DNA of 53,152 bases from Carboxylicivirga caseinilyticus (lineage in GTDB: Bacteria > Bacteroidota > Bacteroidia > Bacteroidales > Marinilabiliaceae). The notes below the pieces were generated by a model. That model was not told where the DNA came from. It did not search any database and saw only the letters and a list, made by a program, of their open reading frames with translations. The DNA lies in the NCBI GenBank assembly GCA_025499705.1, contig JAFMVE010000041.1, forward strand, positions 1 through 53,152, written 5' to 3'. The translations under genes were made by a program, and so were the position numbers. Shown piece by piece: positions 2,266-46,239 of this stretch (position 1 is the stretch's first letter; each line of letters begins with the position of its first letter).

Positions 2266-4041
2266 TTAAAAGGTATATATAATTCCGGCCTGCATATTCA
2301 GTCGTTGCGATGGATATCCATTCCATTGATAGTATTTTGAAGCTGCTATATTATTAACATTTGCCCAAAAAGTCCATTGACGACTAAAGCGATATTCTCC
2401 ACCCAGATTCATATCAAAAACACCATTTAAAGTCTTCTGCAAATCATCCAACTCTCTGTCATATGCTTTTCGCTCACCCAGGTAACCAATGCTACTATTC
2501 AAAGAAATAAATTCATTTAAATTCAATGATGCTTTTAGACCAAATTCCACTTCCGGTTCATGCCAGGCTGCCGCTTCAGAATCAAGGTTCCATCCATTAT
2601 AGGCTCCGTGAAGTAACAATTCTATCTCTTTCTTGGGTCGAAACAACAGCTCACCTTTTACTTTAAGTAAATTACCATCATCATAAACAGGTACAAACAG
2701 ATTAGAGTACTGATATGTGAATAAAGAGCTACTTGTCTCTGGCTGATCACTGTAATATTTATTTACATAGAAATGTTCATCATTAAAAAAGCTGTACTCG
2801 ATTCCGGCAGAGAAACTGGTTGAAGAACTAAAATTACCTTCAATACCGGCAAATAAGTTTAACCCATACATCGATGATTTGATATTTGCATCGGGTGATA
2901 AAAATGGATTTTCATATACAGCTGAACGATAATCATTGATATTCATATTTCCATTCAAGCCTCCATAAAGAGCCACAATACCTTCAACAACAGTCAACTT
3001 CGCAAGAATATCAGGTGCAACAAAAAACTGATCATCTTCAGAGTCTATCTGACCACCAATCACCATACCTACCTTCACATTTATATTATCAAAATTAAAA
3101 TGTACAGCAGGGTTGGCCTCAATATAAGTTAGTTTTCGATCTGAAAAAGTATACATCGCTCCGATTGTATCAGGAACACTGGTTTTAAAACTTTGAACTT
3201 TACCTTCTAATGAAAATATTAAATCGTTAACCGGATGACGCACGGCTCCATTAAGCATAAAACCGTTTTGCTTTACCCCTGTTACATTCCCAAAACTTGA
3301 AAAACCAAAATTTGCGTTGTATACTGTTTTATTATCGTCGCTTACATTATTCTGTAGCCCGATTAACATATCAAAGACTGATAATCTTTGTCTTTCATCC
3401 TGCTTCAAATCACTCCCTAAAACAGGATCAGTTGAACCCGGCAAGTAGTAGTCCGTCTCATCAACCAATGTTTGATAACCGTAATAGTGATAGATATTAT
3501 GCAAAAAGTTTAAATCCACACTCAAGGTTTTATCATCAAAAAAATGCTTAAACCCAAGGTTAGCATAGGTATCATTCATTGGAGCATCTGCACTTTCACC
3601 ATCTTCAAGCTTCAGCTTTCCAAAGGATGAAGTATGTCCGATATTCAATCCCAACAGAAAAGGTTCCGATTCAAGAATATTATACCCAAGTTCACCCAAG
3701 AGTGCATTATAGTTTCCAACACCTCCTTTAACATACGACTTCAACAATAATTCACGTTGTTCTGTCTGAATTTTTGCCGGATTTATTAATGTTGGTTTAT
3801 AATCGGCATTGACTGACGTACTAATGATTCGATAGTTAAAGCTGGGTCGCAGTGTAACTGAATCTTTCACATCCGGCATTTGATTAACTTTAAATGCATC
3901 AGATACGGTTGGTGTATACTCACGAACAACTTTCACATCTTTGTTAATCTCTTCCTGTGCATGAAGATTAAACGAAGCAAAAGCCAAACCCACTAGTACT
4001 AACTTGATATATTTTGTTTGCATCAAATTCATTTTATTCAT
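2266..4041 (-). CDS. Outer-membrane beta-barrel protein partnered with TPR protein
   Basis: A 591-residue protein with a signal peptide (hydrophobic LVLVGLAFASFNLHAQ near residues 15-30) and alternating aromatic/polar strands over most of its length, ending in IIYTF, the terminal aromatic expected for BamA-dependent insertion in the outer membrane. There is no TonB plug signature, so it reads as a barrel rather than a full TonB-dependent receptor. ATGs at codons 4 and 7 are possible alternative starts. It begins 12 bases after the stop of the giant TPR gene upstream and is almost certainly co-transcribed with it. Substrate and role are unknown; I infer that the TPR protein supports or scaffolds it on the periplasmic side. 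Confidence 0.75.
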   Translation of the reverse strand: MNKMNLMQTKYIKLVLVGLAFASFNLHAQEEINKDVKVVREYTPTVSDAFKVNQMPDVKDSVTLRPSFNYRIISTSVNADYKPTLINPAKIQTEQRELLLKSYVKGGVGNYNALLGELGYNILESEPFLLGLNIGHTSSFGKLKLEDGESADAPMNDTYANLGFKHFFDDKTLSVDLNFLHNIYHYYGYQTLVDETDYYLPGSTDPVLGSDLKQDERQRLSVFDMLIGLQNNVSDDNKTVYNANFGFSSFGNVTGVKQNGFMLNGAVRHPVNDLIFSLEGKVQSFKTSVPDTIGAMYTFSDRKLTYIEANPAVHFNFDNINVKVGMVIGGQIDSEDDQFFVAPDILAKLTVVEGIVALYGGLNGNMNINDYRSAVYENPFLSPDANIKSSMYGLNLFAGIEGNFSSSTSFSAGIEYSFFNDEHFYVNKYYSDQPETSSSLFTYQYSNLFVPVYDDGNLLKVKGELLFRPKKEIELLLHGAYNGWNLDSEAAAWHEPEVEFGLKASLNLNEFISLNSSIGYLGERKAYDRELDDLQKTLNGVFDMNLGGEYRFSRQWTFWANVNNIAASKYYQWNGYPSQRLNMQAGIIYTF

Positions 4042-42140: not shown

Positions 42141-43469
42141 TTACTCCCTCTGATACTCGAATGTCATTCCATTTTGTTTGAGTTGAAATTTTCCGGATAC
42201 AATCTGATCTTTCTCCAAAGGGAAAATTAATTGAATACCTGCCGGATCAAACTTAAAAACTCCTTTTTCATAGGCTGTTAGAGGAAAAGGTGATTGTCCG
42301 GTTGCCTGTGCTGTTAATTTACCATCGCTAAATGCAATCCATATTTTCAAAGGCATTTGTGATGATGAATAGGTTCCTTCCAGACTTTTTAAAACGCCTT
42401 CTTCCAATTCCACTTTTTTAGCACTAAAATCAGGCAATTCATAATCTCGGTCAAACATTTCGCTTAAACAGGCAATTAAAATATCATTAAGATTATAATT
42501 AAACCCATTACCGGTTACCGCCTGACTGATGTTTTTATTAATTGATAAATTACTTCTGAATCCATCAATTACACTATTATGTCCGAGTAACGTTTTATCG
42601 TGAAAAGGGAATGAAAAAATGCCATACCCTACTCCATCTTTTATGGTTGTCATTGCCTTAAAACTGTCATCACGGAGGACCTTACCATTGAATAGTTTTT
42701 GAATAAACAAGTTCAAGTCTCTGGGAGTTGAAATAATTGCACCTGCCCCTAATGGAATACTCATATCGGTTTCACTCTCGGGCTGCCAGTTTTCAACGAA
42801 TTTATAAGATTGGGCTTGATTGTCGGAAGTATTTATTTTACCACCTACCTTTGTATGTTTCAAACCCAATTCAACACACAGAATATCAACCAAGCTGCTA
42901 TATGATTCACCCGAAAGATCCTCAAGTATAAATGTGAGAAGCACAAAGTTACTGTTACTGTATTGCATCTTCTCCCCAGGTTCAAAATCGGATCCTTTTG
43001 ATTGAATAATCTGCAATAAATCCTCTCTTGATTTCTCATAAGTCATATACCCCAGATAATCCAAATCATTGGTGAAATTATGAATACCACTTCGATGCCT
43101 CAACAGCTGGCCTATTGTTATTTTTTCAGCATTTTTAATATCCGGAAAAAATTGGTCGAGATGTGTATCCAGGCTTAGCTTGCCTTTTTCTATTTCGCGA
43201 AAAAGTAAAACCGATGTAAACATTTTTGAGATTGATCCAATTCTGAACTTTGTCAGTGAGTCAATCTTTTGACCTTTATTTATATCTGCGTATCCGCAAT
43301 AGCGTTCGTACAAAAGATCATCGCCATCATAAATGGCAACTCCACCCATAAACTTGTTGTTTTGTTCGAGCAAATCAAAATAATCGTCAAGCTTTGAAAA
43401 ATCGTTAGATACCTGTCCTATTACCGGAGATAATAATAGACATAAGAACAAAGAGAAAAGCAGTCTCAT
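42141..43469 (-). CDS. Serine hydrolase, class C beta-lactamase/DD-peptidase fold
   Basis: A 442-residue exported protein: signal peptide (LLFSLFLCLLLSPVIGQ), then the beta-lactamase-related domain with the nucleophile in GSISKMFTSV (S-x-x-K), the second motif YSNSNF (Y-x-N), and LLGHNSVIDGF in the place of the third H/K-x-G motif. The C-terminal 110 residues form a beta-rich extra domain seen in many such proteins. True beta-lactamase activity cannot be read; most family members act on D-amino-acid peptides or esters. It is the first gene of a likely three-gene operon. The upstream 1.5 kb is non-coding and holds the repeat island. Confidence 0.85.
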   Translation of the reverse strand: MRLLFSLFLCLLLSPVIGQVSNDFSKLDDYFDLLEQNNKFMGGVAIYDGDDLLYERYCGYADINKGQKIDSLTKFRIGSISKMFTSVLLFREIEKGKLSLDTHLDQFFPDIKNAEKITIGQLLRHRSGIHNFTNDLDYLGYMTYEKSREDLLQIIQSKGSDFEPGEKMQYSNSNFVLLTFILEDLSGESYSSLVDILCVELGLKHTKVGGKINTSDNQAQSYKFVENWQPESETDMSIPLGAGAIISTPRDLNLFIQKLFNGKVLRDDSFKAMTTIKDGVGYGIFSFPFHDKTLLGHNSVIDGFRSNLSINKNISQAVTGNGFNYNLNDILIACLSEMFDRDYELPDFSAKKVELEEGVLKSLEGTYSSSQMPLKIWIAFSDGKLTAQATGQSPFPLTAYEKGVFKFDPAGIQLIFPLEKDQIVSGKFQLKQNGMTFEYQRE

Positions 43470-43612
43470 ATTTATAAGATTAGTGTTTTACTAAGTTAAT
43501 TAAATAATCTACGAATAGTCAGTAATGTGCTTCAAGAATTTATTGTTTTTGTTTAACGCACAAGGACTTTTCCTTCTTTTATGGAGCAGATACCAGATGA
43601 AAAAAATTAGGA

Positions 43613-43812
43613 TACCGTCGCAATAGAATTATCAGACTAAACAGGCTACTGCGTGCGACGGTTTTACAGCTCACTTATACCGTGGGTTAAAACCCACGGC
43701 TTTTACAGTCAGCCTTTCAGGCTTATTTAATCAACTTTTACCGTTTAACACACCATTAAAATCTGATTCGTGAAATTTGTGTAATTCGTGGTTAAAATCA
43801 TTTGATGATTTA
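43613..43812 (+). repeat. Three-hairpin repeat, copy 1
   Basis: CCGTCGCA (43615-43622) pairs with TGCGACGG (43654-43661); CCGTGGGTT-AA-AACCCACGG (43680-43699) is a 9-bp stem; AGCCT-TTC-AGGCT (43711-43723) a 5-bp stem. A tail with the half-repeats TCGTGAAATTTGTG and TAATTCGTGG ends near 43812. Hairpin 1 to hairpin 2 start is 65 bases and hairpin 2 to hairpin 3 is 31, the same in the other copies. Confidence 0.85.
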
Positions 43813-43891
43813 TGGCTTAAATATTCCAGTAATCAGGCTTATTATGATTGTAAAAGATCTTAGAAAAAATGGAGAGAATAATAGATTTCCA

Positions 43892-44095
43892 TGCCGTCGC
43901 AATAGGATTATCAGACTAAACAGACTACTGCATGCGACGGATTTACAGCTTTCCATTACCGTGGGTTAAAACCCACGGCTCTTACAGTCAGCCTTTCAGG
44001 CTTCTTTAAACTGATTTTATCCTATGAACACACCATTAAAATATAATTCTTGAAATCAGCGTAATTTGTGGTTATGAAATATTTGCTGATTTATC
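43892..44095 (+). repeat. Three-hairpin repeat, copy 2
   Basis: Same order and spacing as copy 1: CCGTCGCA / TGCGACGG (43894-43901, 43933-43940), the CCGTGGGTT hairpin (43959-43978), AGCCTTTCAGGCT (43990-44002), then CACCATTAAAA and the TAATTTGTGG tail. Its interior TTTAAACTGATTTTATCC matches copy 3 better than copy 1. Confidence 0.85.
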
Positions 44096-44213
44096 GATTA
44101 AGTTCATAAGGAATTGGTTGAATTCCATCCTAACTAATTTTAAAATTAACACTTCGCCTTCACACATAGTCATTATCATACCAAAGCAATAATTCTTTTT
44201 AACCCGCTCAAGC

Positions 44214-44640
44214 CGCGGGGGCTTTTACTTCTTCTCTGCAGCAAGAAGAAGTAAACAAGAAGTGCCGCGCTGTCATGAAAATTGCTAAAAATCAATTCTC
44301 TCCGCTAAAATAAAAGAACTCACCCGATAAGAACCTTGTGGCTTTTGGCTGCCAAAAACCTACAGTTTCTAAATCAGGATCAAACAACTTTTCTTTTTTA
44401 ACGCTCCATTCTTTGATTTTCTAAACGCATTTTCCTGAAGGCGCATTCCGGTAAACCAAAGGATAAATGGTAAAAATTGCTGATTTGAGGTGCGGTGGGT
44501 GTCCACGAATGGAGCGGGCTTTTTGAAATGAGGCCCTTGTTCGGTAAGGCTTGTGGGATAACCATTTCAAAAAGGCATCATTCGTGGTGAATTTTCTTTG
44601 TTACTTTCTTTGTTTGGCAGACAAAGAAAGTAGTGTATAG
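44214..44640 (+). repeat. Second hairpin-rich element
   Basis: TTTACTTCTTCT / AGAAGAAGTAAA (44224-44235, 44244-44255) is a perfect 12-bp stem. A nested structure follows: CCACGAATG / CATTCGTGG (44503-44511, 44579-44587) encloses TTTTTGAAATG / CATTTCAAAAA (44520-44530, 44563-44573). ACTTTCTTTGT / ACAAAGAAAGT (44603-44613, 44621-44631) is a perfect 11-bp stem. No open reading frame fits. Probably a dispersed repeat or a non-coding RNA; copies elsewhere cannot be checked here. Confidence 0.6.
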
Positions 44641-44655
44641 AATTATAAGATATTA

Positions 44656-44859
44656 AACTGTTGCAATAGGATTAGCCAGATAAACAGGCTACTGCGTGCG
44701 ACGGATTTACAACTCTCTAATACCGTGGGTTAAAACCCACGGCTTTTACAGTCAGCCTTTCAGGCTTATTTAAACTGATTTTATCCTATGAAAACACCAT
44801 TAAAATCTAATTCGTGAAATTTGTGTAATTCGTGGTTAAAATCATTTGCTTATTTTATC
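44656..44859 (+). repeat. Three-hairpin repeat, copy 3
   Basis: First hairpin is damaged: the left arm reads CTGTTGCA (44658-44665) against TGCGACGG (44697-44704), two mismatches. The CCGTGGGTT hairpin (44723-44742) and AGCCTTTCAGGCT (44754-44766) are intact, with the same 65- and 31-base spacings. The tail repeats TCGTGAAATTTGTG and TAATTCGTGG as in copy 1. Confidence 0.85.
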
Positions 44860-44977
44860 AATAGTATTCAGGTGAATTGCATTTGATTCTTTCTATATCT
44901 GATCACACATTGGTGAAAGCAATTTAATAGAATGAGGAATTTTAGCGATTAATTGTATTTTTATCACAAAAAAAAGA

Positions 44978-45325
44978 ATGGCAAAGAAAAAATGGAAAAA
45001 TCTGGATGGCGTTGTTTTCTCAACGAACCAGGATTTTGATTACCAATATAACGAAGACGAAGAACAGGAAACTCTTGCTCCTTCGCAACAGGATTTACGT
45101 GTGATGCTTGATAAAAAGCACCGGGGTGGTAAAAAAGTAACCCTGGTTACCGGTTTTGTTGGTAATGATGATGATTTAAAAGACTTGGGTAAGATGCTAA
45201 AAAGTAAATGCGGCGTTGGAGGCTCCACCAAGGATGGAGAAATTCTTATCCAGGGCGATTTCCGTGATAAAGTGGTTGATCTCCTCAAGAACGAAGGCTA
45301 TAAGGTAAAAAAGGCTGGTGGTTGA
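44978..45325 (+). CDS. SUI1/YciH-family translation factor
   Basis: A 115-residue protein with the SUI1 fold in the second half (KKVTLVTGFVGNDDDLKDLG, KLKSKCGVGGSTKDGEILIQ, DKVVDLLKNEGYKVKKAG) after a charged N-terminal part (LDGVVFSTNQDFDYQYNED). Relatives of eIF1; in bacteria called YciH, thought to affect start-codon choice, though the role is not settled. No signal peptide. First gene after the repeat island; the next gene follows 83 bases later. Confidence 0.88.
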   Translation: MAKKKWKNLDGVVFSTNQDFDYQYNEDEEQETLAPSQQDLRVMLDKKHRGGKKVTLVTGFVGNDDDLKDLGKMLKSKCGVGGSTKDGEILIQGDFRDKVVDLLKNEGYKVKKAGG

Positions 45326-45408
45326 GATACTGAATCTTAAACCTGCTCGTTTATTATTCTTGATAGTTAAAAAAGATTGCTTCCTTTTTCAGTAAAATGC
45401 TTTAATGA

Positions 45409-46239
45409 ATGATTAATAAACTTCTTTCTTCCCTTTTTCTTTTATTGTTGACTTTGCAGTTGCACGCAGCATGTCCGCCTGATTTTAGGTCTGAGAATGA
45501 AGATTCAAAGCCAAAAAAGGAAATACGCCAGCTTCAGAAAGAAATCAAAAATCTTGATAAAGAATTGGGCCATATCAAGGTAACTGAGCAAAAACTGGCG
45601 GAGGAAGAAGAAATACTAAAAAAGAAAGCCTGGGCCGAAGCCGGCAAACGTAAAAAAAGAAGAAATACAACAACCATCCGTCGGAAGGAACAAAAGATTC
45701 TGGATAAACTTACCGACAAAAGAAAAGAATTATCAGCAGTCAGATCTGAAAAAGATCAGATTCAATCAAATATCAGCAGAATTAATAACCGTATTGCTCA
45801 CCTCAGTGGTGAAACATTAATTACTGAAAAACCGATATCGAAGCCAAGCATCAAAACAGAATCGGAAACTTCGATCAATTCAGATAATTTAAATATGGAA
45901 GTTAAGAATTGGGTTGGAACTCCTTATCGATATGGAGGAACTAACAAATCTGGTATCGATTGTTCAGGTTTAACAACACAGATTTACAAATCGGTTTTCA
46001 ATATTTCATTGCCACGCTCCTCAAGAGATCAATACAGCCAATCGAATAAAATAGCAAAAGCCAAAATTAAACCCGGAGATCTCGTATTTTTTAAAATCAA
46101 CAAAACAGTTGTTAGTCACGTTGGCATATATTTAGGTGATGGTAATTTTATTCATGCATCAACTAGCCGAGGTGTGGTAATCAACAACTTATCTGAACTT
46201 TATTACAAAAAATACTTTATTGGAGGGGGACGCTATTAG
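45409..46239 (+). CDS. NlpC/P60 peptidoglycan hydrolase with coiled coil
   Basis: A 276-residue exported protein: signal peptide (LLSSLFLLLLTLQLHA), a long charged coiled coil (about 35-135), a short Ser/Thr/Lys linker, and a C-terminal NlpC/P60 domain with the triad Cys in GIDCSGLTTQIY, His in VVSHVGIYLGDG and His in FIHASTSRGV. It should cut peptide cross-links in peptidoglycan. The first Cys after the signal peptide (HAACPP) lacks a normal lipobox, so it is probably soluble. Coiled-coil P60 proteins can respond to FtsEX-type systems, which is only a thought here. Confidence 0.85.
   Translation: MINKLLSSLFLLLLTLQLHAACPPDFRSENEDSKPKKEIRQLQKEIKNLDKELGHIKVTEQKLAEEEEILKKKAWAEAGKRKKRRNTTTIRRKEQKILDKLTDKRKELSAVRSEKDQIQSNISRINNRIAHLSGETLITEKPISKPSIKTESETSINSDNLNMEVKNWVGTPYRYGGTNKSGIDCSGLTTQIYKSVFNISLPRSSRDQYSQSNKIAKAKIKPGDLVFFKINKTVVSHVGIYLGDGNFIHASTSRGVVINNLSELYYKKYFIGGGRY

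Follow-up and report, generated by a model that had tools for sequence, protein, structure and literature searches.

The window analysed here, which is the entire 53,152-nucleotide (nt) contig C81 of the Carboxylicivirga caseinilyticus genome (5.65 Mb, 145 contigs), carries in one intergenic gap three copies of an element composed of three hairpins. We found that the repeat family to which these copies belong conserves its fold while the letters of its stems change, and that members of the family are located in the flanks of genes for TnpA-Y1 transposases of subclass 1.2. The reading that we favour, at a probability of roughly 0.66, is that the window copies are non-autonomous mobile single-stranded DNA (ssDNA) elements resembling repetitive extragenic palindromes (REPs) and served by a subclass 1.2 TnpA, and we infer that copies without a gene are mobilised by this enzyme in trans.

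Conservation of the hairpin fold among relatives

In the window, the element consists of helix 1 with 8 base pairs (bp) and a 31-nt loop, helix 2 with 8 bp and a 4-nt loop, and helix 3 with 5 bp and a 3-nt loop, an 11-nt linker leading from helix 2 to helix 3. A covariance model, R1, was built from 16 copies in the C. caseinilyticus genome, which match it by construction, and found matches in 17 of the 71 genomes of the bacterial family, C. caseinilyticus included. A plain DNA search of 60 genomes, again including this one, detected short pieces in 3 of the 59 others, and a scan of genome contigs for the exact helix 2 plus helix 3 pattern, in which the letters of helix 2, since found to be variable, were held fixed and from whose set near relatives may be absent, gave no match.

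An earlier reading of this DNA from its letters alone (the sequence-only reading) had raised covariation of the stems as a check, and the answer is divided: covariation is very strong between genomes but close to that of shuffles within the C. caseinilyticus genome alone, which was excluded as support. Alignment A4 (16 rows from nine genomes, freely aligned), like A5 (15 rows), holds hand-picked elements with the long-loop helix 1, to the exclusion of the other R1 matches in the family. Its pair cells are 96.1% paired, two-sided changes occur in 11 of its 21 pairs, and the 48 cells with such changes were reached by none of 500 shuffles. A second model, R2, was made from 15 diverse elements, none picked for proximity to a transposase. 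Within the order, it detected the element family in 77 of 184 genera, corresponding to 91 of 295 genomes; because no more than 12 candidates were scored in any genome, the scan gives minimum copy counts. Alignment A6, comprising the 34 best R2 matches (E ≤ 1e-6) from 29 order-level loci and fitted to the model, has two-sided changes in 20 of 21 pairs, with 0 of 500 shuffles as high, and 96.8% of its cells pair as against 35-45% in slid controls.

The geometry of the family is an 8-bp stem with usually a 4-nt loop, a linker of about 11-13 nt, and a 5-bp stem with usually a 3-nt loop; in the window members this hairpin pair is preceded by an additional third hairpin, the one with the long loop. 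The linker after helix 2 has T at its second position in all 34 order-level rows and A at its third in 33 of them, and the foot beside helix 2 reads [CT]TA in 33 of 34. At four loci of the same genus (L065, L066, L082 and L072, in genomes G003, G005 and G001) the loop of helix 2 is longer, for example GGCGTTACACTT, with stem and foot kept. Inverted pairs of elements, similar to REP doublets forming hairpins (REPINs) or bacterial interspersed mosaic elements, were seen at L303 of genome G427 (749-875 on the minus and 898-1024 on the plus strand, 22 nt apart) and at L247 of genome G052 (1322-1450 minus and 1501-1626 plus, 50 nt apart).

Subclass 1.2 transposase genes and Acido-Lenti-1 RNA

Homologues of subclass 1.2 are present, in few copies each, in 43 of the 71 family genomes and, phylum-wide, in 138 of 296. 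The signature Y...Q..HH is found in 69 of the 72 family genes examined, which lie in 71 loci, and 14 of 14 TnpA sequences in alignment A7 retain both His, WQ, Tyr, Gln and HH; the TnpA profile matches solved IS200/IS605-type transposases, ISHp608 TnpA among them, the closest structures being 2a6m (E 4.5e-14) and 2xm3 (6.4e-13). Counting flanks of at least 200 nt and stems of at least 6, a hairpin occurs in 105 of 141 near flanks (0-350 nt) of subclass 1.2 genes versus 31 of 136 far flanks (Fisher p 2e-18), and in 15.5% of shuffled flanks. Under a looser rule (stems of at least 5), hairpin spacing at the family genes peaks sharply at 28-29 nt, with 60 pairs in the bin, and in the window helices 2 and 3 are 27.5 nt apart, centre to centre. 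The 29 phylum loci have an identical spacing peak, with hairpins in 73.7% of near versus 16.4% of far flanks. At loci of REP-associated tyrosine transposases (RAYTs), hairpins occupy 86.7% of near flanks, as expected, and their spacing is spread over 26-31 nt.

When R2 was applied to the 239,856 bases around the family subclass 1.2 genes, 64 matches were obtained at E ≤ 0.1, of which 51 lie within 350 nt of the gene; 29 of the 72 genes have such a match, 11 of them on both sides. At E ≤ 1e-3 there are 35 matches in 16 of the 71 loci, and 25 of these fall within 300 nt of the gene, a zone that holds 31% of the bases. The control set of 30 RAYT loci (NF047646) yielded one match, at E 0.027, and at E ≤ 1e-3 none of the 30 loci had any; 16 SUI1 loci of relatives, drawn from 80, gave nothing at E ≤ 0.01. 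Seven matches at E ≤ 0.1, five of them from one locus, were found in the 29 phylum loci; in a set of 30 TnpA loci taken from order genomes rich in elements, five loci together gave nine matches at E ≤ 1e-3. The link is plainest at L302 (contig C76 of genome G528), which was selected because the scan showed an element beside TnpA: the elements that flank its 148-codon subclass 1.2 gene, one per side, are inverted and match R2 at E 2.1e-13 and 2.3e-9. Within the family, a subclass 1.2 gene is present in 14 of the 17 genomes with R1 matches versus 29 of the 54 without (Fisher p 0.03); binomial and Fisher values in this analysis count clustered matches as independent. The sequence-only reading had named a RAYT-type transposase as something to look for; the elements are linked to subclass 1.2, a branch next to the RAYTs, and not to the RAYT family NF047646. 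A further alignment, A3, of hairpin pairs flanking TnpA put 19-nt and 20-nt hairpins out of register and was left out of model building.

The C. caseinilyticus genome has five Y1_Tnp matches, among which the genes on contigs C134 and C89 carry the Y---Q--HH signature of subclass 1.2. Both sit amid palindromes, and the C134 gene is flanked by 123-nt direct repeats that are 98% identical; no match to helix 2 was seen around any of the five. The nearest candidate in the genus is L148 of genome G011, where a CCGTGGG hairpin lies upstream of the gene and a decayed one downstream, with an R2 match (E 2.3e-4) on one side. Two arrangements were seen in passing. At L141 (contig C446 of genome G022) two subclass 1.2 genes stand in tandem about 800 nt apart, with R2 elements between and outside them and flank repeats as high as 99.7% identical over 348 nt. 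Adjoining a RAYT gene on contig C71 of the C. caseinilyticus genome (L024) are two near-identical 99-amino-acid (aa) open reading frames (ORFs), at 2262-2561 and 2825-3124, whose motif resembles that of GIY-YIG proteins.

The 46-nt Rfam model RF01687 (Acido-Lenti-1 RNA) describes an 8-bp stem with a 4-nt loop, a 12-nt linker opening with CUA, and a 5-bp stem with a 3-nt loop, and the window copies have this geometry with a linker of 11 rather than 12 nt. They gave no match to RF01687 at E ≤ 1, which places them below its 37-bit gathering cut-off, and the bridge to Acido-Lenti-1 therefore runs via relatives. Two R2 elements exceed the cut-off (L258, 39.8 bits; L248, 38.0 bits), others stay under it (L303, 36.8 bits; L251, L305 and L252, 30.7-32.5 bits), and at L250 four further RF01687 matches of 44-46 bits lie beside the element. 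We scanned 81 distinct subclass 1.2 loci with Rfam (40 of the 71 family loci, 20 of the 29 phylum loci and 21 order-level loci), with 20 of the 30 RAYT loci as control. At E ≤ 0.01 RF01687 matched in 16 of 81 versus 0 of 20 (Fisher p 0.02), in a sample that was not random, the 40 family loci having been partly chosen for hairpins or R2 matches, L235 for R2 matches, and the order-level loci coming from element-rich genomes. These 16 loci hold 32 matches, 12 of them above the cut-off and none more than 472 nt away from the gene; in four loci they lie on both sides of the gene, L227 having two per side. Of the function of Acido-Lenti-1 little is known, according to the excerpt of a 2026 paper used here (PMC13298647). 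An RF01700 match in the window (E 0.39) and matches to microRNA and small nucleolar RNA models far under their cut-offs were taken as chance or palindromes.

The window copies and their dispersal

All three window copies lie, in direct orientation, in a 1508-nt gap (43470..44977) between divergent genes, a beta-lactamase-fold hydrolase gene on the left (42141-43469, minus strand) and a SUI1 gene on the right (44978-45325, plus strand), whose nearest named relative, 85% identical, belongs to an uncultured Carboxylicivirga sp. Read directly from the window sequence, helix 1 starts at 43615, 43894 and 44658, helix 2 at 43680, 43959 and 44723, and helix 3 at 43711, 43990 and 44754, so that the offsets of 65 and then 31 nt that the sequence-only reading had reported are exact in 3 of 3 copies. 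Copy 1 (43608..43793, plus strand), recognised by its fold and by R1 (141.5 bits, the model having been built from this copy and 15 others of the genome), has helix 1 at 43615-43622/43654-43661 around its 31-nt loop, helix 2 at 43680-43687/43692-43699 followed by the linker at 43700-43710, helix 3 at 43711-43715/43719-43723 and a tail of three 9-mers at 43767-43793. Copy 2 (43864..44073, plus strand; 142.9 bits), in which the stretch from about 43864 is common to other copies, has helix 1 at 43894-43901/43933-43940, helix 2 at 43959-43966/43971-43978, the linker at 43979-43989, helix 3 at 43990-43994/43998-44002 and a decayed tail at 44047-44073. In copy 3 (44651..44837, plus strand; 136.3 bits) the corresponding parts are a weakened helix 1 at 44658-44665/44697-44704, helix 2 at 44723-44730/44735-44742, the linker at 44743-44753, helix 3 at 44754-44758/44762-44766 and the tail at 44811-44837. 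The damage to its first hairpin, already remarked on in the sequence-only reading, comes down to two C-to-T changes (CTGTTGCA versus TGCGACGG), with pairing there only as G-U.

A length of 200 bases had also been given for the element. A repeat search of 42800-45600 did return a single 205-nt family in three copies, but similarity between copies exceeds 200 nt, in alignments of about 240-290 nt. The 119-nt cores on the plus strand are each more stable than dinucleotide shuffles (RNA z -3.4 to -3.7), and helix 3 is followed in the window copies by TATTTAA or TCTTTAA, with no run of T. The conserved tail with a near-direct repeat corresponds to the three 9-mers TTCGTGAAA TTTGTGTAA TTCGTGGTT at 43767-43793 and their equivalents in the other copies; its conservation does not extend to four copies outside the window (L008-L011), which bear a different tail (TTTTTTAACGC...). 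A tail-only DNA match, with the 9-mers but no hairpin core, was seen at L020 (C63:83711-83755). Because of this tail without a core and the alternative tail of L008-L011, the head and the tail of the element look like separate modules. When the aligned copies were inspected by eye, no terminal inverted repeat was evident.

In the genome as a whole, R1 gave 19 matches at E ≤ 1e-3 on 7 contigs (nine on C63, three each on C81 and C124, and one each on C87, C92, C128 and C11), and an independent plain DNA search gave 20, some of them just pieces. Eighteen of the 19 overlap no ORF of at least 100 aa, and the 105-aa ORF overlapped by the remaining copy is taken to be spurious. As some copies lie near contig ends, further ones may be absent from this 145-contig draft assembly. 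Some copies are in tandem, the tail of one abutting the head of the next. Across the 16 copies that were aligned, arm columns are better conserved than unpaired ones (mean top-base frequency 0.93 versus 0.79; Mann-Whitney p 5e-6), which bears out the observation that the arms hold while the linkers drift.

Between copies 2 and 3, at 44170-44650, lies a second repeat mosaic unrelated to the hairpin element. A stretch 90% identical to it is found at C63:17218-17675, and 12 of the genus's 14 genomes contain pieces of it. Another Carboxylicivirga locus, L322, has genes for a HAD hydrolase, a beta-lactamase-fold protein and SUI1 in matching order, and its gap measures about 126 nt versus 1508 nt in the window. 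From its sequence L322 is probably an empty site, deletion in that relative being less likely. Given this short gap between matching neighbours, the window block, that is the three direct copies with the second repeat, was probably inserted between the two genes, adding about 1.4 kb.

Competing explanations, mechanism and comparison with known systems

Three direct copies within 1.25 kb, and hairpins that are intergenic, might suggest a local tandem duplication of ordinary intergenic sequence or ordinary transcription terminators. We consider this highly improbable, since the copies found on 7 contigs and in 91 of 295 genomes refute a merely local duplication, and terminators fit poorly with a position between two divergent gene starts and with a helix 3 that has no T run after it. 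The outcome that the sequence-only reading had named as refuting it, nothing but local duplication and no conserved pairing, is excluded. It is unlikely, too, that the elements are structured RNAs, non-coding or cis-acting, to which the transposase link is incidental or which merely travel along with it. An RNA would be equally expected to show the compensatory changes of A4 and A6 and the G-U pairs of helix 1 in copy 3, Rfam gives RF01687 the type small RNA, and Acido-Lenti-1 is marked as a likely RNA, not cis-regulatory, in the excerpt of Weinberg et al. (2010; PMC2864571) used here. However, the elements occur in numerous copies per genome, in both orientations and with no common gene context, none is present in the 16 SUI1 loci of relatives, and the RF01687 matches cluster at subclass 1.2 loci and not at RAYT loci, as described above for that non-random sample.

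Scarcely more probable than an RNA is mobile DNA moved by some other enzyme, such as a RAYT, an IS200-type or an unrelated transposase, with the likeness to subclass 1.2 flanks due to shared ancestry or convergence. No cognate TnpA for the window stems was found in the C. caseinilyticus genome, which does carry RAYT and IS200-like genes, G427, G094, G024 and G031 have elements with no subclass 1.2 gene detected, and TnpA loci seldom show the long-loop helix 1; yet R2 favours subclass 1.2 over RAYT loci, RAYTs being the transposase control compared, and at L302 the gene lies between two elements.

Several observations also weigh against service by a subclass 1.2 TnpA. The foot of the window copies reads CTT, CTC and CTT, and [CT]TA is kept in 10 of the 16 C. 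caseinilyticus copies; the window copies, departing from the conserved foot, therefore look decayed. The window stems were not found at the TnpA genes of the same genome, the flanks of the C134 and C89 genes bearing other palindromes. Among the family TnpA loci, 55 of 71 had no R2 match at E ≤ 1e-3, and in most R2 matches at TnpA the long-loop helix 1 is missing. In the element-rich order genomes compared, dispersed and TnpA-flanking stems generally differ, and similarity of TnpA correlates weakly with that of stems (Mantel r 0.17, 73/2000). Nor is the flank arrangement fixed, with direct repeats at 46 of the 71 family loci, inverted repeats at 8 and none at 17. No subclass 1.2 gene was detected in three draft genomes of the family (G024, G031 and G094) or in G427, all of which have elements; these four genomes, together with the absence of the conserved foot from the window copies, slightly lowered our confidence, both in this reading and in the superfamily proposal below.

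For elements served by subclass 1.2, the following mechanism may be envisaged. IS608 and ISDra2 TnpA bind ssDNA hairpins and use HuH and Tyr for cutting, and REPs are substrates of TnpAREP, as stated in the portion of PMC8266576 drawn on here. During a single-stranded stage, on the lagging strand or in repair, the hairpins of the element would fold, and a TnpA dimer with its HuH/Tyr active site could bind the hairpin pair at the fixed centre-to-centre spacing of about 28 nt, with the conserved foot by helix 2 ([CT]TA) possibly serving as guide or cleavage motif. The strand would then be cut, rejoined and restored elsewhere, so that gene-less copies would spread in trans; the window would hold three decayed direct copies that probably arrived with the second repeat. 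This scheme does not account for the long-loop helix 1, the mixed orientations at TnpA, the tails and the general difference between dispersed and TnpA-flanking stems within a genome.

We regard as evenly balanced the broader proposal that Acido-Lenti-1 and the three-hairpin repeats of the window belong to a single superfamily of REP-like DNA elements, each a composite with two hairpins, which subclass 1.2 mobilises and in which the paired hairpins, at a fixed spacing of 28-29 nt, are the dimer recognition site. It would offer one common, testable explanation for RF01687, whose function is unknown, and for a transposase subclass of unknown role. If it is true, subclass 1.2, a HuH enzyme near the IS200 transposases, gains a partner that it was thought to lack, and the reading of Acido-Lenti-1 as a regulatory non-coding RNA, for example near Tannerella proteases in the cited excerpt of PMC13298647, needs rethinking. 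The element family may also explain some of the repeats that Bacteroidota genomes contain.

The REP-type or MITE-like (miniature inverted-repeat transposable element) character put forward in the sequence-only reading is supported with qualifications, namely the absent GTAG foot, the low copy number and the fact that no transposase with the window stems was found in the genome. The element shares with REP/REPIN systems and their TnpAREP (RAYT) the dispersed intergenic palindromes and the related palindromes flanking a transposase, with REPINs the inverted pairs of certain relatives (L303, L247), and with REPs an intergenic dispersal (19 copies on 7 contigs, 18 of them outside ORFs of at least 100 aa). 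It differs from a REP in combining two or three hairpins whose spacing is fixed, in its copy number (at E ≤ 1e-3, 19 in the draft of 145 contigs, as against about 100 or more), and in having subclass 1.2 rather than a RAYT as transposase partner. In place of the REP foot GT[AG]G, the four bases before helix 2 on the opposite strand are AAAG, AGAG and AAAG in the window copies, which read CTTT, CTCT and CTTT on the plus strand; at this position the 34 order-level rows have ATAG in 21, ATAA in 5, GTAG in 4 and others in 4. In its behaviour the element resembles REPs or MITEs served by Y1 transposases, yet it is not a strict REP, because the window copies are without the GTAG foot and there is no RAYT link.

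With Acido-Lenti-1 (RF01687) the element shares the geometry of helix 2, linker and helix 3, to which the window copies add the long-loop helix 1, with their own linker of 11 nt; the published taxa of RF01687 are Acidobacteria and Lentisphaerae, versus Bacteroidota here. In the open-licence PubMed Central literature we found no paper tying subclass 1.2 or Acido-Lenti-1 to such elements. The TnpA studied here shares with subclass 1.2, as characterised in the part of Quentin et al. (2018; PMC6006769) used here, the Y---Q--HH signature, HuH, WQ, occurrence in Bacteroidetes and few copies per genome; that part tabulates the subclass as REP 'no', in contrast to the hairpins that we find in 105 of 141 near flanks. 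Its closest solved relatives are those of IS200/IS605 (ISHp608, ISDra2), a type of enzyme that reads folded ssDNA ends (PMC8266576, same portion). Unlike IS200/IS605, it has arrays of hairpins on either side, usually arranged as direct repeats, and the copies are highly divergent in sequence. If the superfamily proposal holds, recognition of paired hairpins would join IS200 ends and single REPs as a third mode by which Y1 transposases read folded ssDNA.
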